A stretch of 64,000 bases of DNA, from the NCBI RefSeq assembly GCF_018143015.1, contig NC_054758.1, positions 186,001 through 250,000 of the forward strand, written 5' to 3'. The translations under genes were made by a program, and so were the position numbers. Source of the stretch: Lytechinus variegatus. Its lineage: Eukaryota > Echinodermata > Echinoidea > Temnopleuroida > Toxopneustidae. The notes under the pieces are model-generated. The model had not been told where the DNA came from, did no database searches, and worked only from the letters and a program-made list of their open reading frames with translations. Of this stretch, positions 1,999-54,594 are shown piece after piece. Within the stretch, counting starts at the first letter, position 1. Every line of letters starts with the position of its first letter.

Positions 1999-4900
1999 CT
2001 GCAGGAGAAATCAATCAATGACCAAATATTAAGTGGAATCACCTAATAATAGAAATCATACACAGCAAAAACTGTGGTGTTAAAGGGCCGGTGTACATAG
2101 AGGACCACACCAGTTATTTTACACCGATGTTAAATTGGTGGTGTTGGTTTTACACTCTTTGGTGTTATGTTCAATCTTTAGGGTGTAATTTTAACACCTC
2201 AGGGTGTGGTCCTCTATTAACACAAATTGATGTCAGTTTTAACACCACACTTTTTACAGTGTATAATCCCGCCATATACCAAAGCATTATGCATCAGAAT
2301 AACAAAAAGGTGCATGATTTGACATAAAAAAATAATGTAATGTTTAATTGTCCAACTTAATGGAAATTCATTTTGTTTACATGCAAACATACAAATTACA
2401 AATATACATAATCAAGGAGAGACAAAATTAACATTCATTGTCAATTTAACATTCATTGACAATTTAATCTGAATCGGATGTAAAATACGAAAGTCATGGA
2501 ATTTAAGTTTGATTTCAAGTTTCGCTTAATTTCACAAAAGAAGTGGCACATTCTGGCTGTAAAAAATAAATCGGTGCCATCACCTACTCACCATTTCTTA
2601 CATGAAATATCTGAACTCACCCTATTTGTTAATTTTTTTATTTCTCCATGAGTTACCTTATTTGTAACCCTTTTTTAGATTTGATGAAGAGTAAGCTTAA
2701 TGACAAATCTGCTAAAGTATTGTTGTTGTATATTGCAAACAATAGACTGGTAATTTGTATCACGCAAACAATAAAAGACATAAGAAATAGTGAGTGACAT
2801 CATATACTTTTGCATATTCTGTGTATTTTAAACTGTTTTGTGAAAAATAAGATGAATAAGAAGAATTGAAAAGGATAATGATTGGTAAATGCATATTTTT
2901 CTACATTAGAAAAGACAAAACATTTTAATAATTACTACTTTTTAAAGTGAGTGACTTTGACCTATACCCAAAGTCATACTTCCGGCGAATTATTTTTTAT
3001 ATTATTATTCTTTTTTTAAACAAGTGCACACCTATAGCATTTCCATTTATTTGAAGCTTGCATATTAAATGCCTCACAGATATAGGTGCCGCAGCCGGGG
3101 ATCAACCCCGGACTTTTCGGTATAGCGATGCAGGCGCCTTAGACCACTCGGCCACCTTAATATTGAATACCTTCATCGATAGCTTGCTTCACTGCATCTG
3201 CTTCGTATAACATACCAGACCAAAGAGGTCCATAAGAATATTCCACCGTAGATTCTGGTGTAGGATATTGAAACGTTTCGATGAGTTCTCCAGTGGTCTT
3301 TGACCATATCAGCTCAGTGGGAGCCCAGAAATGACCCGGAATCTATGATGACGAAAATAATGATGGATTTTGAATCAAATTATTACGAATAATCCTTTAT
3401 ATCCTTCAATTATTTATTGCTATCTTTCGTTATCTCTTTGATTGTCTATATAAAATACTCTACCTCTTTTTCAATTTTCTATTAAAAAAAATCCCCTATA
3501 GACAGTCGGAGTATAATTGCCATTACAATTTTATATTATTTACCATTATTTTCATTAATTCCTTTAATCAGTTCAAAGAAATCTCTTATGAACATCATCC
3601 TATCTTTCCTTTCTCACTATACAAGATGCCATTATATGTGCAAATCAAACCACGAAATCACTGGCGGATCCATAGGGGGTGGCACAGGCTGCCCGTGCCC
3701 CCTCCCACTTGAGAGGCACAATCCAAATTTGTAATGTATTTACTGACATAGCACAATAATGTGCCCCACCTTTTGTTTGAAAGCGAGGAACTTTCTTTTT
3801 CGTGCACGAAATGACCTTGAATATGGATGAAAATTTTTTTCCTCGTCTAATTTTCCTCGGGAAAATGTACCCCCCCCCCTTCGAAAATCATGCATGGATC
3901 TGTCTCTACATGAAACTGCCCCCACATGAAATGGTTTTCATATAGCTACCTTTCTCTGGCTGCTTTTCTCTCAAGCATTTTGCTTACGATAGCTGGCCAC
4001 GGGTGTCTGGAAAACGAAGACCGAAGACCGAAGACCGGGGACACGTATCACACTCGTGTGAAAGCGTTTGTAGTTCACGCACGAAGTGTGTACAAAGCAG
4101 TGCAAAGTGTGTACAAAACACGTGCGCGGGTTAGAATGGACTTTGGACCTTGCCCCCTACACCATGTTCTCCCATTGACATAACGCATGTCCCCGGTCTT
4201 CGATCTTCGTTTTCCAGACCTGTTGTTGGGTGTCTGGAAAACGAAGACAGAAGACCGGGGATCGCATCCGTCTAGCTAAAATAAACCATTATTATATTCA
4301 GATCAAATTCAGGAATATTCTGATATTGGATATGTAGTCAGTTATGATTGGTTGATAAGTTAATGATTAATTGTAAGGATGTCGTTATCAGCTAGGGCAT
4401 AATTAATACATAACAATTATAACGTACAATACACCTCATACTGCGCAATCACGTACAAGCAGTCTCAACTTAACTGCCGTTTGCAACTACCATTGACATT
4501 ACGCGTGTCCCCGGTCTTCCGTCTTCGTTTTCCAGACCTGTTGTTGGGTGTCTGGAAAACGAAGACAGAAGACCGGGGCCATCGCATCCGTCTAGCTAAA
4601 ATAAACCATTATTATATTCAGATCAAATTCAGGAATATTCTGATATTGGATATGTGATCAGTTATGATTGGTATTGATATAAGTTAATGATTAATATTGT
4701 ATGGATATCGTGATGTGAATGATAATTGATTGAGCAATATATCGCGCTCAGCTGGCATTAAAATTTTACTACCATTGACATAACACATGTCCCCGGTCTT
4801 CGATCTTCGTTTTCCAAACCTGTTGTTGGGTGTCTGGAAAACGAAGACAGAAGACCGGGGATCGCATCCGTCTAGCTAAAATAAACCATTATTATATTCA

Positions 4901-7900
4901 GATCAAATTCAGGAATATTCTGATATTTATAGTCGGTTATGATTGGTTGATAAGTTAATGATTAATTGTAAGGATGTCGTTATCAGCTAGGGCATAATTA
5001 ATACATAACAATTATAACGTACAATACACCTCATACTGCGCAATCACGTACAAGCAGTCTCAACTTAACTGCCGTTTGCAACTACCATTGACATTACGCG
5101 TGTCCCCGGTCTTCCGTCTTCGTTTTCCAGACCTGTTGTTGGGTGTCTGGAAAACGAAGACAGAAGACCGGGGATCGCATCCGTCTAGCTAAAATAATCC
5201 ATTATTATATTCAGATCAAATTCAGGAATATTCTGATATTGGATATGTAGTCAGTTATGATTGGTTGATAAGTTAATGATTAATTGTAAGGATGTCGTTA
5301 TCAGCTAGGGCATAATTAATACATAACAATTATAACGTACAATACACCTCATACTGCGCAATCACGTACAAGCAGTCTCAACTTAACTGCCGTTTGCAAC
5401 TACCATTGACATTACGCGTGTCCCCGGTCTTCCGTCTTCGTTTTCCAGACCTGTTGTTGGGTGTCTGGAAAACGAAGACAGAAGACCGGGGATCGCATCC
5501 GTCTAGCTAAAATAAACCATTATTATATTCAGATCAAATTCAGGAATATTCTGATATTGGATATGTGATCAGTTATGATTGGTTGATATAAGTTAATGAT
5601 TAATATTGTATGGATATCGTGATGTGAATGATAATTGATTGAGCAATGTATCGCGCTCAGCTGGCATTTAAATTTTACTACCATTGACATAACACATGTC
5701 CCCGGTCTTCGATCTTCGTTTTCCAAACCTGTTGTTGGGTGTCTGGAAAACGAAGACAGAAGACCGGGGATCGCATCCGTCTAGCTAAAATAAACCATTA
5801 TTATATTCAGATCAAATTCAGGAATATTCTGATATTGGATATGTAGTCAGTTATGATTGGTTGATAAGTTAATGATTAATTGTAAGGATATCGTTATCAG
5901 CTAGGGCATAATTAATACATAACAATTATAACGTACAATACACCTCATACTGCGCAATCACGTACAAGCAGTCTCAACTTAACTGCCGTTTGCAACTACC
6001 ATTGACATTACGCGTGTCCCCGGTCTTCCGTCTTCGTTTTCCAGACCTGTTGTTGGGTGTCTGGAAAACGAAGACAGAAGACCGGGATCGCATCCGTCTA
6101 GCTAAAATAAACCATTATTATATTCAGATCAAATTCAGGAATATTCTGTTATTGGATATGTGATCAGTTATGATTGGTTGATAATTTAATGATTAATATT
6201 GTATGGATATCGTGATGTGAATGATAATTGATTGAGCAATATATCGCGCTCAGCTCAGCTGGCATTAAAATTTTACTACCATTGACATAACACATGTCCC
6301 GGTCTTCGATCTTCGTTTTCCAGACCTGTTGTTGGGTGTCTGGAAAACGAAGACAGAAGACCGGGGATCGCGTATAATTTTGTCTAGCTAAGGTAGGCCT
6401 ATCATTCAGCACCATTCAAGAATATTTTGATCTTGGATACGTCATCTGCCATGATTGGCTGCAGATAAGTTATGGTTATTTGTGTGAATGGTTCTAGGAC
6501 AATTACCCCCGGACAATTACCCCCGGACAATTTAACTACCCCCGGACTACAACCCTCGGACAATCACCCCGGACAATTCCCCCCGGACAACTACCCCCGA
6601 ACAACTACCCCCGGACAATAAGCCCCCGAGGACACTTATCCCCGGACAATTATCCTCGAGGACAATTACCCACTGGACAATTACCCTCGAGGACAATTAT
6701 CCCCGGACAATTACCCTGCCTGCACCAGTTCAAGAATATTTTGATCTTGGATACGTCATCTGCTATGATTGGCTGCGGATAAGTTATGGTTATTTGTGTG
6801 AATGGTTCTAGGACAATTACCCCCCGGACAATTACCCCCGGACAATTACCCCCGGACAACCCCCGGACAATTACCCCCGAGGACAACTACCCCCCGGACA
6901 ATTACACCCCGGACAACTACCCCCTGGACAATCACCCCGGACAATTCCCCCGGACAACTACTCTCGAACAACTACCCCGGACAATAAGCCCCCCGAGGAC
7001 ACTTACCCCCGGACAATTATCCTCGAGGACAATTACCCCTGGACAATAACCCCCGAGGACAATTATCCCCCGGACAATTTCCCCTGCCTGAGGACAATTA
7101 CCCCCATAAAATCATCCCTTCTCTCCAGCATCAATGTTAGAAGCGGGACCCTTTTTAAGTTTTGGTAGGTGGCACAGGTTTTTCGAAATATTTTCTTCTT
7201 TATCTTACCTTGATAATTTTTTCTTTCTGTTTGATATTGCTCTTTTTCCTATTCTCTCACTTTCTTCTTTTTTCCGTTTTTTGTTTGTTTAGCGGCGCCT
7301 TCTGCATCATAAAAAATGGGGGGGGGGGGGTCTTGCACCCGAAATCTCCCGTTTGGCTATGCATATATTCATCAGAAAATGTGTAAACTGGCCCTCATAC
7401 TAAGTTTTCATAGATGAATTGAACACGATTAGTCATAATAATCACAAATGCTGAATATCTCCGATTCCAACTGATCTCATTTTTTGAATATTTATTTCGG
7501 GTTCAATTTCAGGAAAGAAATCAGGCAAATAGATCAAACGTAAAAAGACACCTTTATAGGTAAAAATATATTGAAAGTCGATAACGCATCTATCAACACT
7601 AACACTGTCAAGTAGGACTTATAATCCTGTTATTTTAAAACAATTCAACTAATAAGAAGCTAAAAATTATGAAACGATTGGTGCACATTCCAGCAAGCTC
7701 AAAAACTTTATGCAAAGATAATACAAACAAGAACACCTTGTAATTTTACCATTTAGGCCCTAAATGGTAAAATTACAAGAAGTGTTTTGTGTTTTACTCT
7801 TGGGTGAAAGCAACATTAAAGAAGGAAATTAAGTACCAAAATTACTAAATTGTAAACAATTGTAAAGAATATGACATAATCAAAAACTGATTTTTCTAAA

Positions 7901-10900
7901 CAAATTGGCAATCATGATAGTAAACAATTCGTTTAAGATGCATTTTAAGGACGGTACGTAAGAATTTATAAAGAAGTAGACCTATGCAAATCAAATAATG
8001 CGACTGAGCAGCGTGAGCTGAAAATGTTAATATTTAGACCTAAAAAGGACATTTTACAGAGCACTTTCAAGAAAAAATCAATTTGTAAAAGTGAAAAAAT
8101 AATGAAAGCTCGATATCCGAGATAAAATATGTTTTGTATATTAAATTCAAATCTTGATATTTTAAGCTCCATATATGTCAGCGCGAAGCGCGAGCTGAAA
8201 ATTTTTGGAATTGCATGTATATATTTTAACCTGAAAATTGACTATTCTGGGCAATGTTTGTGAACCTGAACAAGATGCGTATGTAACTAGATAATTACTG
8301 CAAGCGCAAAGCGCGAGCAGAAATTGTTATTAACTGTCCTATAGCATTATCGAAAAGGGACCTGTTAAGGACTGTTTATAGGTACCCACGAAGACGGTAT
8401 ATATATTTCAATAAAGCATTTTTTTAACATTCCGACCTAAAAGAATGGTAATTACTTTTTGTATCAATAAAAGGGATAGGTATGTAACGAAACAATGGAT
8501 GCGAGCGCGAAGCGCGAGAGGAAAAAAAAGAGATTTCAGACCTAAAAGCGGGACACTATTCATATTTTGTAAATCATAAATAAGATATAGTTAATTGGGT
8601 ATCATTACTAATGCGATCGTGAAGCGCGAGCAGACAATTATTGATATTATGATGTGAAACTGGATAATTCAAGTAGATTTTAAAAAAAGAACATGCAGGC
8701 TATCGCGCATGTTTTAGATTTGGACCTAGAATCTGGGCTTTTTGAATACATTCTTTAAAGCCTCGGTATAGCTTTGGTAAAGGGTCAATAATGTGATTGA
8801 TAATCGAATATTATCTAATATGACAGTCTTACTGAAGCGTAGAGCTCGTGTTCTCTGAGAAAAATTCAAATATTCAAATCTTGGATATATAGCGTCCTCT
8901 CTCGGCGATGCTTGTTCTAAATTAAAAAAATGGGCATTCAAGCACTTATCTTATAAATTTAGTAATTAGATATCCAAAAGTTACAAAGAAAATATCTTGA
9001 AAGTTTCAGCCCATTCCATGATTTGGAATAGGATTTAATTGAAAGACAAAAACACACAGATATTTTAATTTGATCGGGTGACCCGATCAAGTTAAATTTC
9101 CATGTAAAATCGCAAAAGTTATCCTGTAAAACACATTTTCATTTCATATCCTCCACATCATAACTGTTAGAGAGCATATCCATTCATATTAGCTAGCAAT
9201 GAATTGGAATAGTGATAGGTGCATTTTGGTGGATTTACCAAAACTATACACAAGCTTTAATAGAATATTATAGATAATAGGAACTTGGCAAATCAAACAA
9301 TGTGACCACGCAGCGTGAGCTTAAAAAAATGCTGATATGTAGACAATACAAGTGGAATGCCTCTGGCCGTCTCACCTGCATCGCGCGGTTCAATATAGCA
9401 GCAGTGCTGACTTTGAATACTACTCTAACTCGCACAAGATGTTCAGTGATACATGGTTACTCTTATGTCCACTTTTTATGAACTAGACCAATAAACTTAC
9501 AGATCGAGATATGATGGTTATTCAACAAAAAAACCCAACATGGCCAAAGTTCACTGACCTTACAAGACCTTTGACCTTGATCATGTGACCTGAAACTCGA
9601 ACAGGATGTTCAGTGATACTTGATTACTCTTATGTACAAGTTTCATGAATCAGATCCATTAACTTTCAAAGTTATGATGGTAATTCAACAGATACACCCA
9701 ATTCGGCAAAGTTCATTGACCTTTGACCTTGGTCATGTGACCTGAAACGTGCACAGGATGTTCAGTGATACTTGATTACTCTAATGTCCAAGTTTAATGA
9801 ACTAGACCAATAAACTTTCAAAGTTATGATGGTAATTCAACAAATACCCCGATTCGGCCAAAGTTCATTGACCCTAAATGACCTTTGACCTTAATCATGA
9901 GACCTGAAACTTGCACAAAATTTTCAGTGATGCTTGATTACTATTATGTCTAAGTTTCATGAATCAGATCCATAAACTCTCAAAGTTATGATGGGAATTC
10001 AACAGATATCCCCAATTCGGCCAAAGTTCATTGACCCTAAATGACCTTTGACCTTGGTCATGTGACATGAAACTCTAATAGGATGTTCAGTAATACTTGA
10101 TTAACCTTATGGCCAAGTTTTATCAACTAGGTCCAGATACTTTCTAAGTTATGACGTCATTTCAAAAACTTAACCTCAGGTTAAGATTTGATGTTGACGC
10201 CGCCGTCGCCGTCGGAAAAGCGGCGCCTATAGTCTCACTTTGCTTCGCAGGTGAGACAAAAACGGACATTTTACAGAGCACTTACATTTGTGAATGAAAA
10301 AATATTGAAAGTTCGATGTCCGAGCTAATTATGTTTTGTATAATAAATTCAAAACTTGCTCCATATCAGCCTAGATGTATTGAGCAAGATATGAATCTCA
10401 TCGAACAGGCAATTCTGGCTCGAAGCGCAAAGATTTATTTATGGTAACATGAAAGATTTTTTTTTTGGCAAGTGTTCCCCTCACATTATTTCATTCACTC
10501 GTCTTCCTCCTCTTTTTTCCACTTATCTTTTCTTCTTCTTTTCGTTTTATCTTTTCTTCTTTCTCCCTTTTTTTTGCTCTGCCAATTTTTTCAGGGGGGG
10601 GGCCTGAGACAGCCACTAGCTGTTGCGTTCTTAATTTATTTTTTTTCCTTCTTGTTTTTTCTGTTTTCTGTTCAGATTTCATGTTAGCATTTTCGCATCC
10701 CGTTTATTTTTTGCTCTTATCCATTTCTTTCCCGACTAAAATTTCTGTTTCACTTTGCCATCTCTTTATTTCTAACCCCTTTCTCACTTGTTTATTAGTA
10801 GGCCCTATTTCAGGATGATTAGATGTGTTCACTCCAATTATTGGTCCTTTTCCTTTCTCCTCTTGTTTCTTTATTCTTTCCCACTCTCATTGTTTGTCTC

Positions 10901-13900
10901 GCCCACAAGAGGTGAAGGCGAGACTAATACCCCTTTCATAGTGAGAGCCGAAGTGGAGTTAGTCCGGAGTCCAGGAGGAGTTACTCCACTTTGGAGGGCA
11001 ATATGAAAATTCTGAGATTAGTTGATCCGGATTCCATATCAATTTGTTGTGTACAAAAAACGCTCCTTTTATAAGGCATAAAAATGGGACGTTTAACGCA
11101 CAGTCACTAATACGCGCCGCTGTCTTCGCATCGTGCAGGCAATCTACGTGTATAGTGGCGGGCTGCTACATTGCGGTGCAGGGGTGTTCAACTTACATAT
11201 CGTGAGCGCACTCAGCTGCGTGTTTTCACTTCTTCTCCTTTCTCTCCTTTTCTTATCATTTTTCCTGGCATTACTTGTTTTCATAAATTTCCCTCTCACT
11301 TTCCTTGTTTTCTCACTCCCTTCAGTTTTGTAACTGTTCTTGATCACTTGCATTCATTGGCACACCCCCGGTCAAAAGTGGTACGGTCCTATCCAACATA
11401 CACTCAAGTCGTCGCTGTACGAATAATGAAAACGTGCAAAATTCTTCACGCGTTGCGTTGCCTAGCTATGCGTGTGTACTGTGTACACACAATGCCATCG
11501 GCTGAACCCGCCAAACTATAGTGACCAATTATTGCAAAAGCTTTTGCAAATGTGAAAAGTGACAGAGGTTTTTTTTATCCAATCAAAATAATTCTTAGGT
11601 ATTCGCAATCTACAGCATTTTCTGCAAAATGTCTTTTTTTGATAGGGTCTATTGTGACGTATATATTTTTTTACAACAATGTGAAGTCGCACCAAACGTT
11701 TCGTTTCCTGCACTTGCCCATTGGCTCATGTACAAATGGATTTCCAAAATCATCAAGAAAGGTTCCAAAAACCTCAAAAGTGACAGAACTTAATTTGACT
11801 AAAATTAAATGAAAATCATATCATGTTCAAGGTGAGAATCTGCTCTATTCTATTCTGTTTTGATAGATCACCTTGTTGACGCGTTTGGGAGATATCTTAG
11901 CAAATCCGTCAAAAAAGGCGTATTTTTTTATTATTCTCCATAGGGAAATAATTTAACACGCTACGCACTGCAAAAAAGGAGCGCAAACAAATTGATATGA
12001 AAGCGGTGTACTCAACCCACTTCGAGAAGAGGGTTACAAACGGAGTTACTCCGCACCGGAAATGCGGTATGCACTTATCGCTGTGATCTCGCAACACGTA
12101 TGGCGCGAACTCGCTTGGAAACCATGGCAACAACAGCGGATACACCGCTGCGGTGTTTGCCAATATGAAAGGGGGTTTAAAGTCGGTCCGCAGTACAAGC
12201 GTATAAACTCAATCCGGAGTTATTCCGGAGTAACTCAACTTCGCCTTCAGTATGAAAACGGTATAAATGTCGTCCGCCCGTCGATTCCCAGAGAGGGTTA
12301 GCCGATTCTGCGGTGCAAGATAGACCATAAAAGCCAATTCTGCATCGGCCTATGGTTCTGAGCCAAAAGCCGATGCACGTGTAAACAGGGCTTCCAAACG
12401 CGTACTGAATGTTGCTGTCTCGAAATGTACGCGTGGGAACGTCTCGGCCGGTTTAACCGCAAAGTAGTAAGCTAGCGACGCACTATTGTTTCATGTTCGC
12501 CGACCGTATGGAAAATACATTCACAAGGGCGCGCTTGCCACCTGTCTTAGGTCGATGACATTGCTTTCTATTACAATTAGGTTTATTTTATACGGAGTTT
12601 TTAATGGGATGGTCCGGGCTGAAAGTATGTATAGCTTAAAGGAATTGTTTAACTTTGTGAGCAGCCGATTAAAAAAATTCTCAAACCAAGATGAAACATG
12701 TGTACAAGTGCATGTATTAGAACTAATAAACCCTGAAAACAACCATAATTGAGAATAAAAAGCTAAAACTACAAGGCAATCCCCGATTTTGTAAATAGGC
12801 GTCTTAATAGACACCTAACTAGTACACATAAGTGTATGGGATGAAATTAAGATGGTGTTTCCGGTCACTTTATATTTCAATTTTTGAAGCACTAAATAAT
12901 CATTTTCGAACGCAATTTTTTCTGGGCTTCATTTTTGGAACATATCACAGACACAGGTGACAAGTGTAACCAATCACTTTAATGAATAGAGTAGAATTCA
13001 CTGAGTAAAATACCGAAAATTTCATCAAAATCGGATAACAAAGTTATTGAATTTTAAAATTTAGCAATATTTTGTTCGAACAATTATCATTCACATCACG
13101 ACATCCATACAATTAATCATTAACTTATCAACCAATCATAACTGATTACATATCCAATATCAGAATATTCCTGAATTTGATCTGAATATAATAATGGTTT
13201 ATTTTAGCTAGACGGATGCGATGGCCCCGGTCTTCTGTCTTCGTTTTCCAGACACCCAACAACAGGTCTGGAAAACGAAGACGGAAGACCGGGACATGCG
13301 TTATGTCAATGGTATAAAATTTTAATGCCCAGCTGAGCGCGATATATTATCTATATCAATCAATTATCATTCACATTACGATATCCATACAATTAATCAT
13401 TAACCAATCATAATTCATTACATATCCAATATCAGAATATTCCTGAATTTGATCTGAATATAATAATGGTTTATTTTAGCTAGACGGATGCGATGGCCCC
13501 GGTCTTCTGTCTTCGTTTTCCAGACACCCAACAACAGGTCTGGAAAACGAAGATCGAAGACCGGGACATGCGTTATGTCAATGGTATAAAATTTTAATGC
13601 CAGCTGAGCTGAGCGCAATATATTGCTCAATCAATTATCATTCACATTACGATATCCATACAATTAATCATTAACCAATCATAATTCATTACATATCCAA
13701 TATCAGAATATTCCTGAATTTGATCTGAATATAATGGTTTATTTTAGCTAGACGGATGCGATGGCCCCGGTCTTCTGTCTTCGTTTTCCAGACACCCAAC
13801 AACAGGTCTGGAAAACGAAGATCGAAGACGGGGACATGCGTTATGTCAATGGTATAAAATTTTAATGCCAGCTGAGCTGAGCGCGATATATTGCTCAATC

Positions 13901-16900
13901 ACTTATCATTCACATTACGATATCCATACAATTAATCATTAACCAATCATAATTCATTACATATCCAATATCAGAATATTCCTGAATTTGATCTGAATAT
14001 AATAATGGGTTATTTTAGCTAGACGGATGCGATGGCCCCGGTCTTCTGTCTTCGTTTTCCAGACACCCAACAACAGGTCTGGAAAACGAAGACGGAAGAC
14101 CGGGGACATGCGTTATGTCAATGGTATAAAATTTTAATGCCAGCTGAGCTGAGCGCGATATATTGCTCAATCAATTATCATTCACATTACGATATCCATA
14201 CAATTAATCATTAACCAATCATAATTCATTACATATCCAATATCAGAATATTCCTGAATTTGATCTGAATATAATGGTTTATTTTAGCTAGACGGATGCG
14301 ATGGCCCTGGTCTTCTGTCTTCGTTTTCCAGACACCCAACAACAGGTCTGGAAAACGAAGATCGAAGACCGGGGACATGCGTTATGTCAATGGTATAAAA
14401 TTTTAATGCCAGCTGAGCTGAGCGCGATATATTGCTCAATCAATTATCATTCACATTACGATATCCATACAATTAATCATTAACCAAGCATAATTCATTA
14501 CATATCCAATATCAGAATATTCCTGAATTTGATCTGAATATAATAATGGTTTATTTTAGCTAGACGGATGCGATGGCCCCGGTCTTCTGTCTTCGTTTTC
14601 CAGACACCCAACAACAGGTCTGGAAAACGAAGATCGAAGACCGGGGACATGCGTTATGTCAATGGTATAAAATTTTAATGCCAGCTGAGCGCGATATATT
14701 GCTCAATCAATTATCATTCACATTACGATATCCATACAATTAATCATTAACCAATCATAATTCATTACATATCCAATATCAGAATATTCCTGAATTCGAT
14801 CTGAATATAATAATGGTTTTTTAGCTAGACGGATGCGATGGCCCCGGTCTTCTGTCTTCGTTTTCCAGACACCCAACAACAGGTCTGGAAAACGAAGACG
14901 GAAGACCGGGGACATGCGTTATGTCAATGGTATAAAATTTTAATGCCAGCTGAGCTGAGCGCGATATATTGCTCAATCAATTATCATTAACTTATCAACC
15001 AATCATAATTCATTACATATCCAATATCAGAATATTCCTGAATTTGATTTGAATATAATAATGGTTTATTTTTGCTAGACGGATGCGATGGCCCCGGTCT
15101 TCTGTCTTCGTTTTCCAGACACCCAACAACAGGTCTGGAAAACGAAGATCGAAGACCGGGGACATGCGTTATGTCAATGGTATAAAATTTTAATGCCAGC
15201 TGAGCTGAGCGCAATATATTGCTCAATCAATTATCATTCACATTACGATATCCATACAATTAATCATTAACCAATCATAATTCATTACATATCCAATATC
15301 AGAATATTCCTGAATTTGATCTGAATATAATGGTTTATTTTAGCTAGACGGATGCGATGGCCCGGTCTTCTGTCTTCGTTTTCCAGACACCCAACAACAG
15401 GTCTGGAAAACGAAGATCGAAGACCGGGGACATGCGTTATGTCAATGGTATAAAATTTTAATGCCAGCTGAGCTGAGCGCGATATATTGCTCAATCACTT
15501 ATCATTCACATTACGATATCCATACAATTAATCATTAACCAATCATAATTCATTACATATCCAATATCAGAATATTCCTGAATTTGATCTGAATATAATA
15601 ATGGGTTATTTTAGCTAGACGGATCCGATGGCCCGGTCTTCTGTCTTCGTTTTCCAGACACCCAACAACAGGTCTGGAAAACGAAGACGGAAGACCGGGG
15701 ACATGCGTTATGTCAATGGTATAAAATTTTAATGCCAGCTGAGCTGAGCGCGATATATTGCTCAATCAATTATCATTAACTTATCAACCAATCATAATTC
15801 ATTACATATCCAATATCAGAATATTCCTGAATTTGATTTGAATATAATAATGGTTTATTTTTGCTAGACGGATGCGATGGCCCCGGTCTTCTGTCTTCGT
15901 TTTCCAGACACCCAACAACAGGTCTGGAAAACGAAGATCGAAGACCGGGGACATGCGTTATGTCAATGGTATAAAATTTTAATGCCAGCTGAGCTGAGCG
16001 CGATATATTGCTCAATCACTTATCATTCACATTACGATATCCATACAATTAATCATTAACCAATCATAATTCATTACATATCCAATATCAGAATATTCCT
16101 GAATTTGATCTGAATATAATAATGGGTTATTTTAGCTAGACGGATGCGATGGCCCCGGTCTTCTGTCTTCGTTTTCCAGACACCCAACAACAGGTCTGGA
16201 AAACGAAGACGGAAGACCGGGGACATGCGTTATGTCAATGGTATAAAATTTTAATGCCAGCTGAGCTGAGCGCGATATATTGCTCAATCAATTATCATTA
16301 ACTTATCAACCAATCATAATTCATTACATATCCAATATCAGAATATTCCTGAATTTGATTTGAATATAATAATGGTTTATTTTTGCTAGACGGATGCGAT
16401 GGCCCCGGTCTTCTGTCTTCGTTTTCCAGACACCCAACAACAGGTCTGGAAAACGAAGATCGAAGACCGGGGACATGCGTTATGTCAATGGGAGAACATG
16501 TGTAGGGGGCAAGGTCCAAAGTCCATTCTAACCCGCGCACGTGTTTTGTACACACTTTGCACTGCTTTGTACACACTTCGTGCGTGAACTACAAACGCTT
16601 TCACACGAGTGTGATATGTGTCCCCGGTCTTCGGTCTTCGGTCTTCGTTTTCCAGACACCCGCTGGCCACTGCATTTTATTATCGTATTGCTTACTCGTA
16701 TGTAAATCATTCTTCTATTATATAATCGCCACAATTTGCAATTCTTTAATTTATCATTTGTTTTTGTATTTCTTTATATCTATTATGATTACCGTGTTTC
16801 ATTTATTGAATTTTCAATAAATGCAGAAACAAACTGAAAAAAAACTGAAGAATGAAAGTATATGCTTCATTGAAAATGATTTTCTGGAATCATTTAAAGA

Positions 16901-17245: not shown

Positions 17246-20200
17246 AGGATATAAAGGACATTGCGCACCAAAAGAAAATCACAAGCAAAAAAAAAATTTC
17301 TTCACTTTTAAACTCGTCAGGGGAGGGGGGGCAGAATTACGTCGCTTGCGTGGGTTGTGACTCGTCGGGGTCTGCTCCCCCCCCCCCCCCGTGTGTTAAA
17401 GACTCGTGTGCTAAAGTGGCACTTAAAAAGGATTCATAAAAAATAAGATGGAAATTCGAGGCTTGAATGTTTACTACCAGTGGATAGGATAAAAGTCTTA
17501 CATTCCATATCTGGCCAGAAAAGGGTACCTCGACCGGCTCATTTAAAAAATAATTCAGTATTTATGAAGACTACACCTGACGGGACCAATTTCATTACTT
17601 GAGAGAGTAAAATGACCCTAATTCTTCCGCCAGTAAAAATATAGTTCCATGGTGATGTATCTTTCCAATTTGGAAAAAGTAAGTTCAGTAGGTACCCTCC
17701 CTAGTATCAGTGTTAGATTGTCAGTCATATTCATTCATTTTTGTCAATCAGCAATATCAAATATAAAAAAATTGAACAATGGGTTGGCTCGAATGAAACT
17801 ATATGGCCTGCCAGTTGTGATAGGCCCGTGCAACCAGCAGTATTGCTGTGTTGCTGCCCTCTATGTTCGTTGGTTAGTAGTACCTTTAGATGCCCTTTCG
17901 TGCCACTAATAAAGACTTCATTTGGATAGTCTGCTGTGATTGTACATGAAAGCGTTGCCATGGTGTTGTTACGAAACCTCATCACAGTTGTGTACATCTC
18001 ATCTACTCCTAAAGGGAAAATAAATAACGATCATTAAAGGAGAATGAAACATTTGGAATAAGTTGTGAAAGTTACAAAATCGAAGAATAAGATCAATGAA
18101 GTTTGGTTAAAATTAGTCAAGCAATAAATAAATGATCATTTGAATGCTGAGAATTCAAAAGCAATAATTTGATATCCTCACATTGGTAATGAAAATGTGC
18201 AATGTCATACAATCCCTACGCCTATATAAACATCACATTTTGTTCATGCTAACGATAGAACAATCATTTCTGTCATGAAAACTATATTTCACGTCCTCTC
18301 ATAAAAATAGAAAACCTAATCTTGCATGCAGTACAGTGCGTATCAAAAAAAGTTTACACTTAGAAAAAATCCTGTAAAATTATATATTTGTAATATCCTG
18401 AGGATTTTTCCACATTTTAAGATTGGTACAGATCCATTTAAGCAAATGACGATATAACTGTCGAAAAATATTTCCGCTTGAGTGAGCACCACTTACTTTT
18501 GAAAAGTTGGTGAAAAATGATTTGCGCAGAACTTTGAAATAGTTATGCGAATAAAAGTAGACCTTAATCATGAAGAACACGTGGAAATTAGCAAGTTAAA
18601 ACTGATATGAAGATATCTTTTACCTTTTTAAACTTGTTTCCTTGCCCAAAACACTTCGAAGAGTGCATTGCGCCCCATCCCACTCCCCCACACACCGAGT
18701 CCATCGTGACGATATTTGCTTTACACTGAGCTGTGATTTACATGAAATGGCTTAGGCTTGATTTTCATTTTGTTAATCATTGCCAAGCTTGGGAAAGTGT
18801 GGAGAAACAAGTATTAAATGAAAATGAAATGTAAACCAACTTTAAATGATAAAAACTTAGTGAAAAATGCCGGAGAAGTCTGATATAAACTTTTGTTCAG
18901 ATTCAGTTATGTCCTCAGATCCAGCTGGCACAAAAAGGGTAAAGGTTGTGCTTACTAAGTGTTGAAATTTCAAATTTGGGCGGCAAAATTGTTACAAAAT
19001 GCTTGAATGTATCCGTTTTATTTCAATTGGCTAAAAGTGCTAGGGAAATTTATGAGAAATGCTTCGCAGGGTAAGTTTGATTTCACCCTTTCCCCTTGAC
19101 ACAGCGTGAAAACAAGCATTTCTGCACAAACAGATTTCTGCGAGCTTTACAAAAATGGACAGTGCTCACTCAAGTGTAACATTCTGTCAAAACTTTTACC
19201 TTCATTGGATAGATGAGACCCAAACCCATAATTATATGTGAAAAAATTACCCACATGTTGTATATTTATTAATTCCCAGGGCATTTTCAAAGTGTAAACT
19301 TTTTTTTGATACGCACTGTATAGACGAGATATAAGAGAAATAACGTTGAAATATGCACGTAATGTGGAACTTGTGTGTGTGTAATATCACATATATTTCT
19401 AATTGCTAGAGGGATTACCTACAGCAGTGGTGATATAAGCCGCAGTGGTGATATAAGCACCAACATTTTCATACCTTTCTCATTGACCTTCCTATATTGT
19501 TTTGAATATGTACTATTGCTTCGATTATATTATTTATTTTGTTTAACGGAAATAAATAAATCTAAATATAAAATCTATTCTATTTTTTCCTTTAAAATAT
19601 TATTGATCCGTTTCTTTGATTTATAATTCACTTAGTTTTAAGAGTTTCGTTATCTTTTATGGTTGACATAAGAAGGTAATAGATATCCATATAATTTAAG
19701 CAAAATCTACCCGATTTATCATCTGTTCATCAACATTTTAGATATAAAAAGTTTTCTGGTTTACTTTTTGTCCGTTTATTTATTTCTATCTAGCTTGTGC
19801 TTTTTTCTGTTTGTTTATTACCATATAAACAGAATAAAATATACATGTTCGAATCTAACAAATCGTACGAATCATTATCATTTCAGCGGTATTAACAAAA
19901 TACTACTTTTTTCCATGGGGTTTTAATAACGTTAATACAGGCTTATGAATATAGTATATGCATATAATAATTGATCCTCATTGAGGATATCAATAATTAT
20001 ATTAATAATATATGAATTAGTTAGAGACTTGCAAACATACATTGAATTGCCAATAGCCATTAAATAAAATGATTGGAGAGAATGTGTAGAAGAGATAACA
20101 AGTCGTACAAGTGGTTGTTAAGTACAAAAATGTGAAATGAATATTATGGAATGAATATGATGAACATTTGAAGAAAAATGAACAAAGGTTCATTTATTTT

Positions 20201-23200
20201 GAAAAGATTTACTGTTTCAAGTGAAATACTTCAAAATAACATCTTCCAACTTAGACTCTCTTTATAAGTTATATTAAAGTAGTATGAGTCTAAGTTGGCA
20301 GTTGTGAAGCAATCTATTGTCTGCTTTTCCCTATTCAACAATAAAACTCCTTGGCCTTTAAAAAGGCGAGGCCTGCATAACAAAAGCTTTTACAAAGACA
20401 TTCTAGAATGTTCCTTATCATAAATGAATGTAATTGCTCTTACAATTCTTCTTATATGTAACAAACTCTATATAAGAGTCTAAGTTGGAAGAGCTCATAC
20501 ACGTCCCTTATCTTTCAAAGAACAATGGATTGATATGTTTACCGTCATCATTGAGGACCCCACTTGTTATAGATGATATCGGTGCTACTCCATTGAAGAT
20601 CATTGTAGTCATATAGACCATGTACACACCCATGTCGTAGAGGGCTCCACCACCATAATCTGACGAAAACGTGAAAGAGAAAAGATAAAAATCAACAAGG
20701 CTGACGGTTAGAGGAATTGGAATTATATATAGGAGCCCACCACCCCGAGAGGAATTATGGGGAGCCCACCACTCCCGAGAGGAATTAGAATTATATAGGA
20801 GTCAATTACCACCCTCGAGAGGAATTATGATTATATAGGAACACCCCCCCCCCCCCGATGAATAAGAATTATATAGGGAGCCCACCAATCAACACCCCCT
20901 CCGCGAATTCCCCTCCCTGACCATTTCGTTTTAACCCCGAATCAGGAGGCGATTAATCCCTCTGCATGGGAAATTTCATTGAGACTGTCAATAATATATA
21001 CATTTACACTAGTATTATATACATTTACACTAGTATTAAAGAAACAGGATGTTTCTTTGACATTCATTTTCATTTGATTCCACTGCTTCGCTGTTAATTC
21101 TTTATACAGGCCCTATAGATTTTGTATTTTTAGACTAGGTATATACCTAGTTCTAGATTATTTGAATGATCTATTCTGTTTTTTTTTTTACTTACTTTAT
21201 TTTGGTATTTTCTGTCAGATTATGTGATATGCTTGTATTATGTTTTAGATTCAGTGTTTTTTAGTTAAAATATTTATTCAATAAAGACTATTTAAAAGAA
21301 ATATAAATTTCATGCAGTTTCATCAACGTTGAGCAATTATTTTTCTGCAAAAGTATTGAAGCATGATTGGTTATAAATGGCTTATTTTTTCATTCTTTGT
21401 TATGAAAATTACCCGCCTGAATAAAATATGTGAAAAAAGGGTAAAATAATATGATTTGTTTTACAATTTTCTGTATTCTGAATAATTATTTGACAATGTG
21501 AACAGTGATTATGTTGATATTGTAACCATATATACGAATTAATAATATGCAAATTACCCATGGAAATCATAAAATTACCCGCACATTGGCTATAAAAAAA
21601 ATGAAATTGTGTGGCAGGAGTGAAATAATCTCTGAAAAATAGTTTTGGATAAAATCATTTATTTTCTGGACATTCAAAATGGCCACCATGTGCCCCTGTA
21701 CACTATATTATGTACAACATGAGTAGGCAAAACTAATTTTCACAAAAATGAGCACTAAACTGCAAGAAAACGAGTACACCGTCTCCATAATGCTCCTGCT
21801 GCCCCCCCCCCCCCACGACCACCACCATGCCCACCAGTTTCTGGTATCACAATCCTAAAACATTTCCAATAGACTCTATTTTGTTAAAATGGCACTTTAA
21901 AAAATCACAGAAAATAAGGTTGAAATTCGATGATTGAATGCAATACCAGTGGATAGGATAACATGTCTGACATTCCATATCTAACCCCAAAAAACGGTAC
22001 CTCGACTGGCTCATTTTAAAGATAAATAGGCATTTATGACGACTACACCTGACGGGATCAAATTCATCACTTGAGACAGCAAAATGGCCCTAATTCTTCC
22101 GCCAGTAAAAAAAATAGTTCCAAAGTGGTGATCACAGAGATACGGAAAAGAGAGATCAGTATAGGCACCCTCCCTTGAATTGATTGTCAATTATATTCAT
22201 TCATTTCTGTCAATCAGCAATGTCAAAATTACAAATTAAGAATTGGTTGGCTCGAATGAATATCTTTTGCCTGCCAATTGTAACTAGGCCCGTAAAACCG
22301 ATGTTGTTGTGCTCAGACATGGGCTTTGCCAACCCTGTCCGCAACAACACGTCCTTGAATTCATTCCCTCCTCCCCACCCTTGGTCCCCATCCCGCATAT
22401 GAACTTCCTCAGAATACTAATTATAGTGTGTGAAAAATGAAATAAAAATTTATACAAATTTGAAAAAAATGTTTCCTTGCCTCTTTTTATCGTTCTTTCT
22501 CTGTCTGGTGTATATATTCCAAAATTTATAAGCACAGATTTGACGTCACCAAGTTGCCCCGATGAGACAAGTTCCCGGATCTTAGCGCTGACGGGAAAGA
22601 AACGGGTCCACATTGCCTGCATGAAGAAAAATTGCAATACAATGAAAGGAGAAAAGGGGGCAGGCACTTCCACCCCCCGCCCCCAATTCAGGCTCTGCTG
22701 GTGATTGCCTTTGAAATATTGGCCCCAAAATAAAAATAAGATAACTCCATGGCATTTATAGTGCAATCTACCTATAAATATTTTATTCCAAACGCAGCAA
22801 GAAAATTGAAATAAGAGAGCTTGGATCAGTGTCATAGTGTCTTTTACTGATTATCTTAGAAAATAAAACTGCATTTTGGATTGGTGAATGGTACACAAAG
22901 CCCTAAAATAATGCGAGCGAACAGTGTGAGCAAAAATTGTGACAATTTTAATAGCAGAATCTGACAAATATAGAATTTGACAAAATATTCAGAAAATAAT
23001 GTATTTTACTCGTTCAATTTCTTGTTTTTCTGTTCCCATCTCAGTCATGAAACTGTTGAGGGCATGATCCCACAAGCCCCCCCCCCCTCACTTCCATCAT
23101 CTCTACGACAGTGATTGGCAAGGTTGGTATAAAAAATGTATTTTCTGGTAGAGAGCGTTTAAGACATTAACCGCTACCCCCCCCCCCCCCCCCCGCCCAT

Positions 23201-28689: not shown

Positions 28690-29031
28690 TTCAGTTCATG
28701 ACGTGACTGAGGACTGGCTGGATTACGTAGCCAATACATAAACAAGATCACAATTGATATAAGCTATTTCGTGATTGGCCGGTGTTTAGTCACGTGATCC
28801 CTTCCAAAACGGGCGCGCCATTTTGACGTGCTTTTCTCCGCGCCGCATGTGCTGATATCTCGTTGTGTACTATATGCACGATTGTCGATCTCGCGAGCAT
28901 ATACGCTATATGCAACACGACGCGCGCATGTTGTTGTTATTTACGATTTGTTTGCCACACGCCATCACCATCGATTGAGACGGGAATCGACAACTAATTC
29001 ATCAAAATCTAACGGTTTTTCTCGACGGAAG
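28690..29031 (+). promoter_or_regulatory. Probable WEE1 promoter and 5' UTR
   Basis: This is a CpG-richer stretch next to the WEE1 start codon. It carries TGACGTGA (28699-28706), CCAAT (28731-28735), an inverted CCAAT (28774-28778), the E-box CACGTG (28791-28796), and GGGCGCGCCATTTTGACGTG (28811-28830), which has an E2F-like core beside a CRE-like half. No TATA box is evident. Paired CCAAT boxes with E2F-like sites are common in cell-cycle promoters; the assignment is inference. Confidence 0.55.
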
Positions 29032-29786
29032 ATGTCGTTAGCTACACCAATGAATTCCTTATTTCATCAAGGTGTTCACGGATCGCCTACACAACGCCTA
29101 GATTTTGGCGATGCTCTCGGTTCCGAAGGCGAAAGTGACGCTAGTTTTGCCGCTTACTCTGATTTCAACGATTTGCAAGAAGAGAGGATTGATCACAGTC
29201 CCATTTCAAGTTCATTTTCTGATGATCGTGATGACTCCTTAAATCTCACGGCAGAATGGGATCCCGCCTTGGCAACTCCAAAAAGCAGCCCATCAAAACG
29301 GCCCGTGCAACGAAGACCAGTTTCAAGACTTCATGGTGGCGAAAATTCAGTTGCATCTCCCCTTTTCCGAAGGCCAAGCGACTCAAGTTGCAGTCCCTCT
29401 CCAATGTTAATATGCGGAAGTAGCCCCGCCTCCTCCGCAGGGGGAAGCGACTCTGTTGGTTCTCCACCCCCACACAAGCGGCTTCGTAACTTGAGACTTT
29501 TCGATTCACCACACACGCCCAAATCATTAATTCAAAAGGCAAATGCGAGTGCCAGACGAAATAAACTTCTTGCCAGTAGACTCTTCAGTGAGAAACCCGC
29601 TGCTGTACGTGAACATGGTGATGATGGTACTCTTGCAAGGCCGCACACGGCTCCAAACATGAGAAGTATGCAGAGAAGAAGCACAAGAATTTCTAAGACG
29701 AGACAGCAGAATGTAGCAAATGTCAACCCATTCACACCATCAGCCATGTTGCAAAACGCAACCAAGAAAAGGCTTCGACAGGAAAG
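29032..29786 (+). CDS. WEE1: WEE1 exon 1 (residues 1-252)
   Basis: Encodes the regulatory N-terminus, with many SP/TP sites ([23 protein letters not shown]) and a cyclin-docking-like KRLRNLRLF. The donor is GTAAAT and the exon ends in phase 2. It is disordered by composition, as in other WEE1 proteins. Confidence 0.93.
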
Positions 29787-32700
29787 GTAAATTTTAGGGA
29801 TTCTAAAGTTTAACTTGGTTTTATAACCTCTGGAGACAGTATTTTTTTTTGCATCTTGTCTCTTACTTAGTCTTAATCTTGATTCATGTTTTATTTTGTT
29901 CCCCAGTATTAAAATGAATCATGGACTGGTTGTTGATTTATCATGTCATATTTATTGACCATTTTTTGCCATTCTGAGTCGCAGTCATAGGGCATTTTTA
30001 ATTTTCGGGGGCTATAGTATATTACTACAGTCCTGACAGTACCTGAATGAATCTAACAACACCAACATTACCTGAATCTCCAACATGTCATTGGTAAGCT
30101 ATTATTTAACATTTGCAACAAATGAGGATTTTTCAGGGCTCTTTTGAGCGTTCAGGGGTCAACTCAAAACCCCGACTTGCCCCCTGTGTACTTTTATCTC
30201 TTCACAGCCTACCAATCTGTGACTAGTAGACATGCATGTACATGTAGGCTGAAGAAATCTATTTTTCAAAATTTTATGGAGGGAGGGGGATGCCCCAAAG
30301 TCTTGGAGGATACCCTGACCAAAATAGACTGATTATTCAGTCAAGCTGCATAACCTCGCCTTGTTCATTGAATGAGTGCCTTGTATAGAGTAGGGGATGA
30401 GGGATAGAAGCATTTGATCTGATCTTTAATTCAAGAGTTACAATACAATTAGACTTTGACCTTGAAGGCTTGAATGAGCAACAGCCTAACAGTGCATCCA
30501 TTGTTTACACAGTTCATCATATAGCAATGATTGCAATCCAAATTTCAAATGCAGGGAAATGTACATCTCAAAGTCCTCAGCCTTAAAAAAAGGGTGATGA
30601 TTCAGAAACATACATGCACAGTTTATGTACCTGATCTTATCGAGGCCCCTGAATGATTGACCTTGTAAAGGTCATGCAATGTAGAACATGTAGCAGACTG
30701 GTTCAGACAGGAGCGTTCAGGTGCTTTGTTTGCTAAACGTGAAGCTGACGGTTGAATTTTAAAAGCAAATGAGCTTAAGAAGTTTTTTTTCCCATTTACT
30801 GTAAATAGCCTGCTCTGTTCTACACTTTTTTAAATCTCAACACAAAGATTTACAGTCAGTTATAGAGGGGGGGGGGGGGGGGGGAAGGTTATTGGCTGGT
30901 TTATAGTCTTCAAACACAATACATACATGTACACATTTACAAGATTATGTTGATATGATGAATTATGATGCCTTTGCCTTTTGAAGGCTTAGGCTTATCT
31001 TACTTGTGTATTTGGGCCCTTTGTCACAATACACCAAAGAGATCTACTTATGTTCAGAATCAACCATATGAGTATTGACCCTCATGAGAATGGAAGTTTT
31101 CAGTGCGCAAACTATTCTCTTTCAGTCAAGTCATAAAGTAAGTTTTATGACTGTAGTTTGACTACAAATCTGGTCACAATTCACAATAGAAAAGTAGTCT
31201 TTTGAAAAGGGTTTTGATTCAAATATAATGTTGAAAGGCAGGAGCTTTCCCACCATTTTGGATATTATTCCACCCCTGCTCCTGCATTGGATCAAGATAA
31301 ATTTAAGGTAGAACAGAGTCCAAGAAAGATTTTTGTTTTAAATGCCTGATTTTTACCGGTACCATCCCAGAACTCTTTAGCAACACCTTTTCATGTCTTT
31401 CAGTACAATTATAAAAATAAAAACAACATGTAAAATTATACTTCTCCATGAATTGCACTTCATTTAAATTGAAAGTGCAGGAGAGTAGAATTATGTACCA
31501 GTATTGTAATGCATTTTCGTGAGCATCTGTGAAGGAATAAAAATGTGCTAGATGCTGAAATCATGTAAATCTATGGAGGGATTACTGAGCAATCTATCAT
31601 GCATGTGTCAATTACACCCTATGTGAACCAGCTTATTGATTTTGATTTTAACAAGTTACTTGAACATGTCATTATAATTAGATTTAACCTCTAAATCTAT
31701 ACCAAAAATGCACAAGTGCTTTTCTCAATAACAATCCCCTGGCACCACTGTGCAGCATTAACTGTATGCACATCAAACAGTCTAACCTAATTGGTATTTC
31801 TAAAGTTATTTACTTGTAAATCCTATTTTCAATCCTTTATTGTCAGTTTCTTGGCTAAAGAAAAATGAGACATGAAGGGCCTTTTTAGTTAGATTAAAAG
31901 AAGTCTCAAAGGTTATCTTAGACTTCAAAGGAGTTCATTTGAAGGCACCCCTGTTTTTGTTATATGCTTTAGAGGTGGCATAAAGGGTTTTTCATGTCTT
32001 TCTCACTTTGAACACTGACTAATCCCCCTATTGAAACCCTTATTGATATTTGAAAGGCTACTGTCTTTTGTTTGGTTAATTGGTGTCTATTGAGATAACC
32101 TTTGAACTTTGACTATGTAACTGTAGTTACCAGGATCTTGTTTAGATTCAAAAATTTTACTGGTACATTTTGATTATTTATTTGTTGTTCTCTTTTGAGT
32201 TGTATCTCCAAGGATTATACACTTTGTAGTTCATTTTTTCAGCTGAAACTTGTAGTCTTTTTCTCATACACTGTACATGTGTCTTTCTACTTTCTGGCTC
32301 AAAGTTGTAAGATACTTGTTTTATTATCAGCACTCCTTGATATTGATTATCATTTTATAAAAAAAATGAATACTACCAGAATTACAGCATCCTAAACCTG
32401 TATGTTCCCAGGTCACCAGGGTTCTGTAACACAAAGGTTAGCAATTAATTGTACACTTGATTTTCACGATTGATTTTACATTGTAGTCAATGGAATCAAT
32501 CGCAGAAAAATGTTCTACAATCATTGCTAAGCTTTGTGTTCTGGGCACCAGATTAGTGTTGTATGATGTATCTAAAGTGTGTTTAAACTGTTCATGCAAC
32601 CATGCGTTTTAAACTCGCCCCAAAGAAAGGTGGTTACGATTTGCACATTTCAAAGATAACTCGGTTGAACAGAGAGATACTGGTTTTATTTTAAAGGCCC

Positions 32701-35700
32701 AGACCAAAGCATCTGAAAGGGAATTTCATGTGCTATATGGTAATTAATACATGCATAGGCAAAAGATCGATGTTTAAAATCAAAATACATGTATATTGGA
32801 GGAACAGGTTTGTAACTTCTAAACAGTCAAATATTTTCACTTACGGTATAAGATGTGAGCAGCTCACCAGACCTGCCAACCAGTACGTTTTTAGCGTATT
32901 TAGTACGTTTTACAACCAAAATACGGCAGTACATTTTTTCTATAAAAAATATGTTTTTGTGTAAATTTTTTTTTTTTTTACAAAATCGTAGTTTATGTAG
33001 ATTGAGAAAAATAATCTCTACATGTTATTATTTCATAAAACTTACACAAAACTTACACAAATATGGTTATTAGATCAATGTTATTTCAGGTACTTTTTTT
33101 CCAATCATTTTGTTATAACCAGGGTGAGATATGTATGTTTTTAAATATATTTTTTTTCATCTGCAAGAGCAGTGCGCATTTTAGCTTGCATGCAGCTTGA
33201 GCGCCACGATGAGTGAGTGCGACACACATTTTATTATGAAATACACTTTTTATCATAAAATACAATTTTTCATTCCCAGAGGTTGGCAGGTCTGGCTCAC
33301 CATACCTCTTTTTTAATGCAATTTTTGAATCCCAGGAAATTACCTTTACAAACCAAATCACTCGTGTAACTCTGCTATCAGTAATATTAACTTGATTATT
33401 TTATATGTTTTATCTTTGATCAGGAGTATTCTCGATGATGACGATGATGAAATCGATGATGACATGGATGGTAGCTATACAGAAAATCCAGCAAAGGTAA
33501 TAGTTGGGTTTTAAAAAAAATATCCATTTTGGGTACCTAGGGGGGATTGTAAATTTTTACAAATTTCTGATGATATTGTGACTGTACACTTTCCCATTGA
33601 AAAAAAATGAGAATCAGAGGTCTAATCCTGTCTTTTTACATGGGAAGTGTTGTGGCCCAGTGGATTAGTCTCTGGACTTTGAAATAGAGGGTTGTGGGAT
33701 CGAATCCCAGCCATGGTGTAATTTCCTTCAGCAAGAAATTGATCCACAATGTGCTGCAGTCGACCCAGGTGAGGTGAATGGGTTCCCGGTAGGATTTATT
33801 CCTTGAACGCTTTTAGCGCCTATTAAATGGCAGCTCAGCTACAGCGGGGGTAATAATATGATGCCAAGTTTCAAAGCGCAGTTGAGTATATGCACATAGT
33901 AACTGCTCAGTTATATAAATGGACATATTATTTATTATTTATATATTCTTAAAAGGAGTTCATGGTATGACGGTGCTGTCAAACTGAAGCTTCAATGATA
34001 ATTGGACCATTGCCTAGGGGATAATGTTTCAAACAAGAAATCTGCCTTGAAATTATGTAAACCTATCATAATTAAACTTGCCATGTTTCCTTGAAAAAGA
34101 GTAAAAAATATGTCATCCCCAACAAATATATTTTCGTTCCCCCTCTCCAGTCATTTTATTTATCAGCTTTTTGCTTTAAAAAAAGTGAAATGTAAAGATT
34201 ACTTGAGTTAATTGTATTGGCAGTTCTTTGGGGGACATTATATCCTTTCAGCCTAATGTGAAATATTGTGCATTCCTAATTCTTAATGTCGTGTATCTTT
34301 ACAGAGGATAGCATTACGAGACAGCGACATCTCTCGTTATGAGGCAGAGTTTGTTGAGGTCTGTAAGGTTGGATCTGGCGAGTTTGGATCAGTCTATAAG
34401 TGTATCAACAAACTTGATGGATGTTTCTATGCCATCAAGAAATCAAAAAGACCTATCGCTGGATCTGCTTTTGAGTAAGTATTTATCAGTCTTAAATGAT
34501 TAAATGATTTATAACATTGGCCTGTATTCTGAAGTCAGGTGTGATTTAGACCATGGTCTATCTCATTGCTGAAATTATGGGAAGCCAAAAGTGTCAACCT
34601 TTTTATTAAGTTGTATGTTTCTTATGTTTACTGTGCTCTGATTCATCGATGGTGAAGGCAATCATCTATTTACACTTCCTAGACAATTCTGAATGATTTG
34701 AGAGCCAAATGAGCTGAAGTATGATATCTTTACTGTTACTGTTAGTGATTTATGTAACAATTGGCTGTCCATACTTAAATCCCCAACTTTAAACCTGAGT
34801 TTAAGTTAAACCCGACTTCAGAATATGGGCCATACTGTATATAAACCGTGATCCTGGTTTAAAATTTACCCCCCTCCTCCTTCATGTACAAAAAAATGAG
34901 TCACATCACTATTTGTTGTTAAAAAAGAAAAGACATGTAAAAAAAGGGCTGGGACTTGTTACATGAAACTGAAGGATTTTATTGACATTGATTTGACTTC
35001 AAGGATATTACCCACAATTTGTCACTTTTGTCTGTGATAGGATGTATAAATGAAGCCCTCACAAAATTGAATTTGAACATCATTATTTGGTTCTTTTAAA
35101 AAGTGAAATATGGAGTGACTCTGGTGAGATGCCATCCCAATTCATTCAGTTTACTGATGTGCAATCTCCCCAAGACAAAGACATAATATATTACTTCAAT
35201 TCATGCACATATATCAAATGAAAAGATAGTACATGTATCACAATAAAGTATATTTGTTAATGAACAATGATAGGATTTGGCTCTGGGATAATTTTATTTT
35301 ATTTTACAGAACTCAATATATTACACTGCTACAGTGATACATAAGAAGAAAGCCTATAAATATTGCACTATTACTTAATCTTGTATTACAGGCAAATGGC
35401 ACTAAATGAAGTATACGCCCATGCAGTACTTGGAACTCACATCCATGTTGTCAGATACTACTCAGCTTGGTCAGAAGCTGGTCACATGATCATACAGAAT
35501 GAATACTGTAATGGTAAGTCACATGATCATACAGAAAGAATACTGTAACGGTATAAAGTCACATGATCATACAGAATGAATACTGTAATGGTAGGTCGCA
35601 TGATCATACAGAATGAATACTGTAATGGTAGGTCACATGATCATACGGAAAGAATACTGTAATGGTAAGTCAATGGTCACATGATCATAAATATATTAAT

Positions 35701-54033: not shown

Positions 54034-54586
54034 CCCGGGAGGGCCACTTCCATTCACGAGTGGATACCATGCGCGACCATGGGGTCTCGAAAAGCACCCT
54101 AAACACGTAATTTCCATTTTCTGAAAATGCACCCCTTAACAAGTATTGGCGTGTGAAACCCGACCCTTAACAAGTATTGGAAACAAAACGATACTCTTAT
54201 TGGTAATATTCCCTGAAATGAACCCCGAAACAAGTACAGGAATGTTTTATTGTTACGGGTCCTTCGGTCGTCGGCTTTACCTTATTTGGTTTAGTACGAC
54301 CCCACCTTCTACACCTCGCGCAAATCGGACTCTAAACACGAAGTTTTGGGGCAAAAAGGACATCCTTTATAAAACATTTTAATTTTATGTTATCATCCCC
54401 GCATATTCCATCCTAAACACGTAATTTTCCTAGCGAAATAGATACCCTTTTTTCATTATTTTTGTGTTTTTGACACCCTTATCACGTTACGTACGTAACG
54501 TGCCCTATCGTGAAAAAGACATCCTTTTTACGTGTTTTTTTGGTCGCGCATGGTATCCACTCGCCAATGTAAGTGGCCCCCCCGGG
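54034..54586. mobile_element. hAT-like MITE, complete copy
   Basis: Ends CCCGGGAGGGCCACTTCC and CCCCCCCGGG, flanked by a perfect 8-bp duplication CATATAAT (54026-54033 and 54587-54594). It lies in the opposite orientation to 25212-25761. Confidence 0.87.
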
Positions 54587-54594
54587 CATATAAT

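Follow-up and report, generated by a model that had tools for sequence, protein, structure and literature searches.

A probable non-autonomous fold-back transposon with long arms of repeated inverted-end units in Lytechinus variegatus

A 12.66-kb segment of the window (the whole 64-kb stretch of Lytechinus variegatus DNA that was analysed) is very probably a single insertion of a non-autonomous, fold-back, cut-and-paste DNA transposon with long, internally repetitive terminal inverted repeats (Table 1). Its transposase would have come from another copy, and its arms would have grown by unequal exchange or slippage. Both features sought in a fold-back element were found, namely long inverted repeats built of internal tandem repeats of variable number and a target site duplication lying flush with the ends. 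The duplicated target is GCTGGCCAC. An exact comparison places both copies directly against the element ends with no mismatch, bearing out the perfect 9-bp duplication that an earlier note had proposed around these boundaries. At the exact spacing of the element, a 9-mer is shared at two of the 51,321 positions, and the GCTGGCCAC duplication accounts for one of these; the background of 9-mer sharing at the nearby spacings sampled is 39 in 2,776,470 (1.4e-5).

The ends of the element begin with GGG and carry a 20-base motif, GGGTGTCTGGAAAACGAAGA, which is present in 23 exact copies in the 64-kb window. Every copy lies inside the element and faces outward. The left arm has nine, all on the + strand (4001–6334), and the right arm 14, all on the - strand (13238–16642); the rest of the window contains no exact copy. 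When up to three mismatches are allowed in the 20-base motif, 32 matches are obtained, none of them outside the element (mean of 100 shuffles, 0.00), and these consist of the 23 exact motifs and nine closing inverted ends of monomers. No second copy of the element was detected elsewhere within the window by the exact and mismatch-tolerant motif scans or among the matches listed in a self-comparison of the window, which left aside matches within one and the same arm, left or right. Exact-pattern scans of viral contigs (four patterns) and prokaryote contigs (one pattern) also returned no match, as expected for an animal repeat, for which such scans are a weak test.

Table 1. Positions of the element, its parts and weak domain matches within the window
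Feature	Position	Strand	Description
Fold-back element	4001-16661		12.66 kb; flanked by exact 9-bp duplication; inverted ends
Left copy of 9-bp target site duplication GCTGGCCAC	3992..4000	+	Exact match
Left cap unit, outermost terminal inverted repeat	4001..4227	+	227 bp
Left array	4228..6333	+	7 full monomers: 4 type A (313-318 bp), 3 type B (278-282 bp)
Eighth left monomer, truncated and diverged	6334..6496	+	128/149 aligned bases identical to left monomer L6
GGACAATTACCCCC minisatellite, two blocks flanking a decayed monomer remnant	6497..7105	+	
Interior, no recognised coding sequence, other repeats present	7106..13066	.	
Innermost right monomer, truncated	13067..13257	-	Inner edge uncertain
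Right array	13258..16435	-	12 full monomers, all type B (250-272 bp)
Right cap unit	16436..16661	-	226 bp
Right copy of 9-bp target site duplication GCTGGCCAC	16662..16670	+	Exact match
Weak Nkap_C/TEX33 Pfam matches in right-array monomers	13413-13463, 14224-14274, 15536-15646	-	

The two caps differ by one substitution in 226 bases and one indel (99.6% identical, 0.44% divergence). They are thus as nearly identical as the earlier note had described them, and longer (227 and 226 bp) than the ∼190 bp it gave. No left-right type-B pair (36 compared) and no left-A/right-B pair (48 compared) diverges as little as the two caps do, and cap sequence is confined to the outer ends of the element among the self-comparison matches listed. 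This close match may reflect joint conversion or selection, or matching at the last transposition. The monomer sequence, which had been unfamiliar at first inspection, is not foreign to the caps, as the two have common edges. The first 21 bp of the left cap are common to all four monomers tested. At the other end, the right cap and the right monomers have 24 to 56 bp in common (12 monomers tested), and the left cap and the left monomers 10 and 24 bp (two monomers tested).

The arms are unlike in monomer type, number and order, with two types (A and B) in the left array and one (B) in the right array. A previous count of eight left and 13 right monomers is correct provided that it takes in the truncated inner monomer on either side and leaves out the caps. 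Within the left arm, divergence is 0.31–0.96% for type-A pairs (6 pairs) and 0.72–1.82% for type-B pairs (3 pairs). Type-B pairs of the right arm diverge by 0–4.02% (mean 2.05%, 66 pairs), and left-right type-B pairs by 2.61–5.76% (mean 3.75%, 36 pairs). Fourteen alignment columns of the B monomers, four of them substitutions, are fixed for different states between the arms. In the right arm, monomers R1, R3 and R6 are identical, and zero substitutions separate R2 from R10 and R5 from R11. Since the divergence ranges within the right arm (up to 4.02%) and between the arms (from 2.61%) overlap, the case for separate homogenisation depends on the mean values, the fixed differences between arms and the identity of R1, R3 and R6, which together suggest that the arms expanded and were homogenised largely separately.

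The truncated innermost right monomer runs counter to this arm-specific pattern, being closer to the left B units (96–97% identity) than to the right units (93–96%). On one reading it retains an older state, with the qualification that a dispersed repeat of another kind (12979–13090) overlaps the monomer and leaves its inner edge uncertain. Divergence is greater at the inner edge of the left arm, as seen in the truncated eighth monomer and in a decayed monomer remnant farther inward, at 6717–6810. The remnant agrees with monomer L6 at 63 of 75 aligned bases, and its alignment score is 79, compared with a maximum of 59 among 300 simple shuffles. This region also includes a direct duplication (85.6%) of 6409–6717 and 6722–7023.

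Every full unit, caps included, opens with the 21-bp element end GGGTGTCTGGAAAACGAAGAC and finishes with part of that sequence, inverted, followed by a TGTTGTT linker. There are 21 linker-bearing junctions, eight in the left arm and 13 in the right arm. Four of these, folded as single DNA strands, form strong hairpins with energies of -26.9 to -33.2 kcal/mol and z-scores between -8.0 and -10.9; no shuffle out of 200 was equally stable. The first 29 alignment columns are invariant across the 19 full monomers, and the caps match them over the first 21. Given that 46 of 225 gap-free columns are variable overall, the naive chance of 21 invariant first columns is 0.005, a value that only suggests constraint on the end motif, since the units share a recent origin by duplication. 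The motif could also owe its invariance to conversion and to such duplication instead of to binding.

The interior contains no recognised coding sequence. No Pfam family was matched at E up to 1 in the six frames of 6401–13070 (stops replaced by X), and transposases of the MULE, DDE_Tnp_IS1595 (Merlin) and PHD-finger (Rehavkus) types were absent from the interior frames by the same Pfam threshold. The Pfam searches covered the arms on the - strand, as part of - strand scans of 1–30000. In the right array, the weak matches to Nkap_C (E from 0.014 to 0.1) and TEX33 (E 0.0026) do not reach the curated cut-offs and were attributed to chance. The window has no match to a known RNA family at gathering scores.

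Several other repeats are found in the interior. The region 10928–12263 has imperfect inverted ends with TAA at either side, and is perhaps a nested Harbinger-like element. The region 9369–10257 is a repeat between GTCTCACC and GGTGAGAC, within which a 163-bp unit is repeated in tandem about 4.5 times. Neither region seems to belong to the fold-back element; each has the look of an unrelated repeat. The dispersed repeat at 12979–13090 has further copies at 45683–45788 and 46077–46187 (87% and 80% identical) among the matches listed.

In the explanation that we favour, a transposase supplied by another copy would bind the end motif GGGTGTCTGGAAAACGAAGAC that opens every unit, cut at the outermost caps and insert the element with a 9-bp stagger. 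The arms would then grow through unequal exchange or slippage among the tandem units, mostly independently in each arm. This mode of growth is suggested because units are on average more alike within than between arms, and some are identical. A more elaborate scheme, to which we give little credence, is that each unit is a transposon-like cassette whose exchangeable core (of cap, A or B type) lies between an outward end that is complete and an inverted end that is partial. The arms would in that case grow by a cassette process at the hairpin junctions (end-to-end insertion or hairpin-provoked repair) and not by ordinary unequal exchange, and any unit would be a possible alternative end.

A Mutator-like origin seems the reasonable, if provisional, choice of superfamily. 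The target site duplications of Mutator-like elements (MULEs) are described as about 8–11 bp (PMC6446971, PMC5225508), and the 9 bp observed here fall within this range. The superfamily is not fixed without a transposase, because Merlin elements likewise show 8–9-bp duplications and GG ends. The Merlin families described in PMC8101967 have a GG start, duplications of 8 or 9 bp and TIRs of 24–462 bp, and in some cases contain internal tandem repeats; eight echinoderm sequences from two species are counted there. The GGG ends and the 9-bp duplication of the present element agree with the terminal GG and duplication size of Merlin. However, according to the Tetris paper, Mutator seems to be home to most fold-back elements (PMC4079207), and the end sequences of both superfamilies are set against the element here by description only. 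A Merlin-derived fold-back element, which would alter the superfamily and nothing else in the favoured explanation, is thus a less likely, though credible, source. Rehavkus is a further candidate, described as having a 9-bp duplication, a minisatellite before the 3′ TIR and a PHD-finger transposase (PMC6446971). The element studied here has the 9-bp duplication; its minisatellite adjoins the left arm only, and no transposase was found in the interior frames.

The 12.66-kb segment might also be a macrotransposon, in which two adjacent smaller fold-back elements, one for each arm, mobilised the intervening host DNA through their outer ends. This would be a sub-case of fold-back transposition and is compatible with the favoured explanation. 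The interior without a Pfam match, the unrelated repeats inside it, and the presence of cap sequence at the outer ends only, among the matches listed, are in accord with such an origin. However, no inner caps remain among the matches listed and type-B monomers are present in both arms, and we consider a macrotransposon improbable. Long inverted arrays are hard to assemble and, as is generally known, error-prone in assembly, which raises the prospect that inverted satellite arrays were misjoined. An assembly artefact is nevertheless highly improbable: the arms are built differently, and a misjoin is not expected to give a flush, exact 9-bp duplication.

A DHDH-like gene lies on the - strand, with pieces near 26.1, 23.3, 22.6, 20.6 and 18.0 kb. 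It matches GFO_IDH_MocA with E-values of 9.3e-12 (above the curated cut-off) and 7.2e-5 (below it), GFO_IDH_MocA_C3 with E-values of 1.4e-5 and 0.0046 (both below the curated cut-off), and the dimeric dihydrodiol dehydrogenase 2o48 with an E-value of 2.7e-5. A further exon of this gene is likely near 3.2–3.35 kb, as judged from a sequence motif. If no coding exon was missed, the element sits in the fifth intron found of this gene. The earlier note had read the segment as a single recent non-autonomous fold-back insertion into DHDH intron 5. The single insertion, the lack of recognised coding sequence and the placement in a DHDH-like gene, within the fifth of the introns found, are all supported. 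For a recent date there are no more than suggestive signs, namely the exactness of the duplication and the 99.6% identity between the caps. With the arms in an intron, a transcript of the gene would be predicted to contain kilobases of complementary arms.

Other features were noted in the surrounding sequence. An open reading frame at 28798–29790 (+) is followed by kinase pieces within 34359–36715 (+), which match Pkinase with E-values of 7.1e-5 (below the cut-off) and 7.1e-13. The open reading frame presumably resembles the N-terminal part of Wee1; it has zero matches in the PDB. Among the matches listed, a large imperfect tandem repeat at 23527–25210 has long open frames on both strands, a dispersed repeat of ∼420 bp is present at 17409–17836, 21882–22304 and 63576–63997 (copies 78–80% identical), and three related dispersed copies are located at 728–1841, 25215–25758 and 54037–54594 (pieces 79–88% identical).

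The element is a large, well-preserved case of transposon inverted ends becoming satellite-like arrays, in which the separate homogenisation of the arms still appears traceable. If other copies differ in unit number, they would provide a direct test of the roles of transposase ends, hairpin repair and unequal exchange in the birth of such arrays.

The Drosophila FB and sea urchin TU elements have a fold-back architecture with much shorter repeat units, and are likened to the present element by description. Target duplications of the Drosophila element Galileo are shorter than the 9 bp seen here. Searches of the open-access literature retrieved no paper on the sea urchin TU element, and for fold-back elements in echinoderms one paper, which by its listing deals with genome rearrangements in Drosophila; the combination of sea urchin, Mutator and TIR led only to the Tetris paper, and five strings from the element ends did not occur in open-access papers, which proves little about novelty. 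In the Tetris paper, the fold-back elements cited include FB and one from a sea urchin (PMC4079207). The consulted sections of two papers on transposon-derived satellites (PMC9659126, PMC8268682) contain no relative by sequence.

Galileo has long TIRs, with ∼210-bp direct repeats in one subfamily, and the number of repeats is unequal between the two arms of one copy, as in the present element (PMC3573991). Unlike the latter, it belongs to the P superfamily and at most three repeats are reported in the part of that source compared, again by description. Tm1 (PMC3169594) and Muta1 (PMC5225508) are described as Mutator/fold-back elements with duplications of 8–10 bp and 8–9 bp, respectively, and, like the element studied here, they have TIR repeat units of varying number; many of their copies also lack a transposase. 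However, their units are 12–15 bp long, in contrast to 250–318 bp here.

The architecture is thus already known, and the element is a new example of a known transposon type, on nearly the same plan as Tetris. Tetris is a non-autonomous fold-back element of Drosophila virilis with 8–10-bp duplications, whose TIR consists of an outer cap domain followed by ∼220-bp tandem repeats; beyond the TIR comes a middle without coding capacity (PMC4079207). Its cap and repeats have a 37-bp stretch in common, the repeat number varies, and the repeats also build longer satellite arrays of up to 66 copies; its authors, pointing to the size of the duplications and to other fold-back elements as precedent, suggested that it belongs to Mutator (PMC4079207). 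The cap, the tandem repeats, the lack of recognised coding sequence in the middle and the stretch common to cap and repeat all recur, by description, in the present element. Two features are less usual, namely how long the arrays are within a bounded element and the inverted ends on every full unit; the latter was not found described in the portions of the literature examined, which is no proof of novelty. Whereas the TIRs of Tetris are described as at most 1,735 bp, with an allelic pair carrying three and four repeats in one arm (PMC4079207), the arms here contain eight and 13 units in an element of 12.66 kb, and each full unit bears its own inverted ends.
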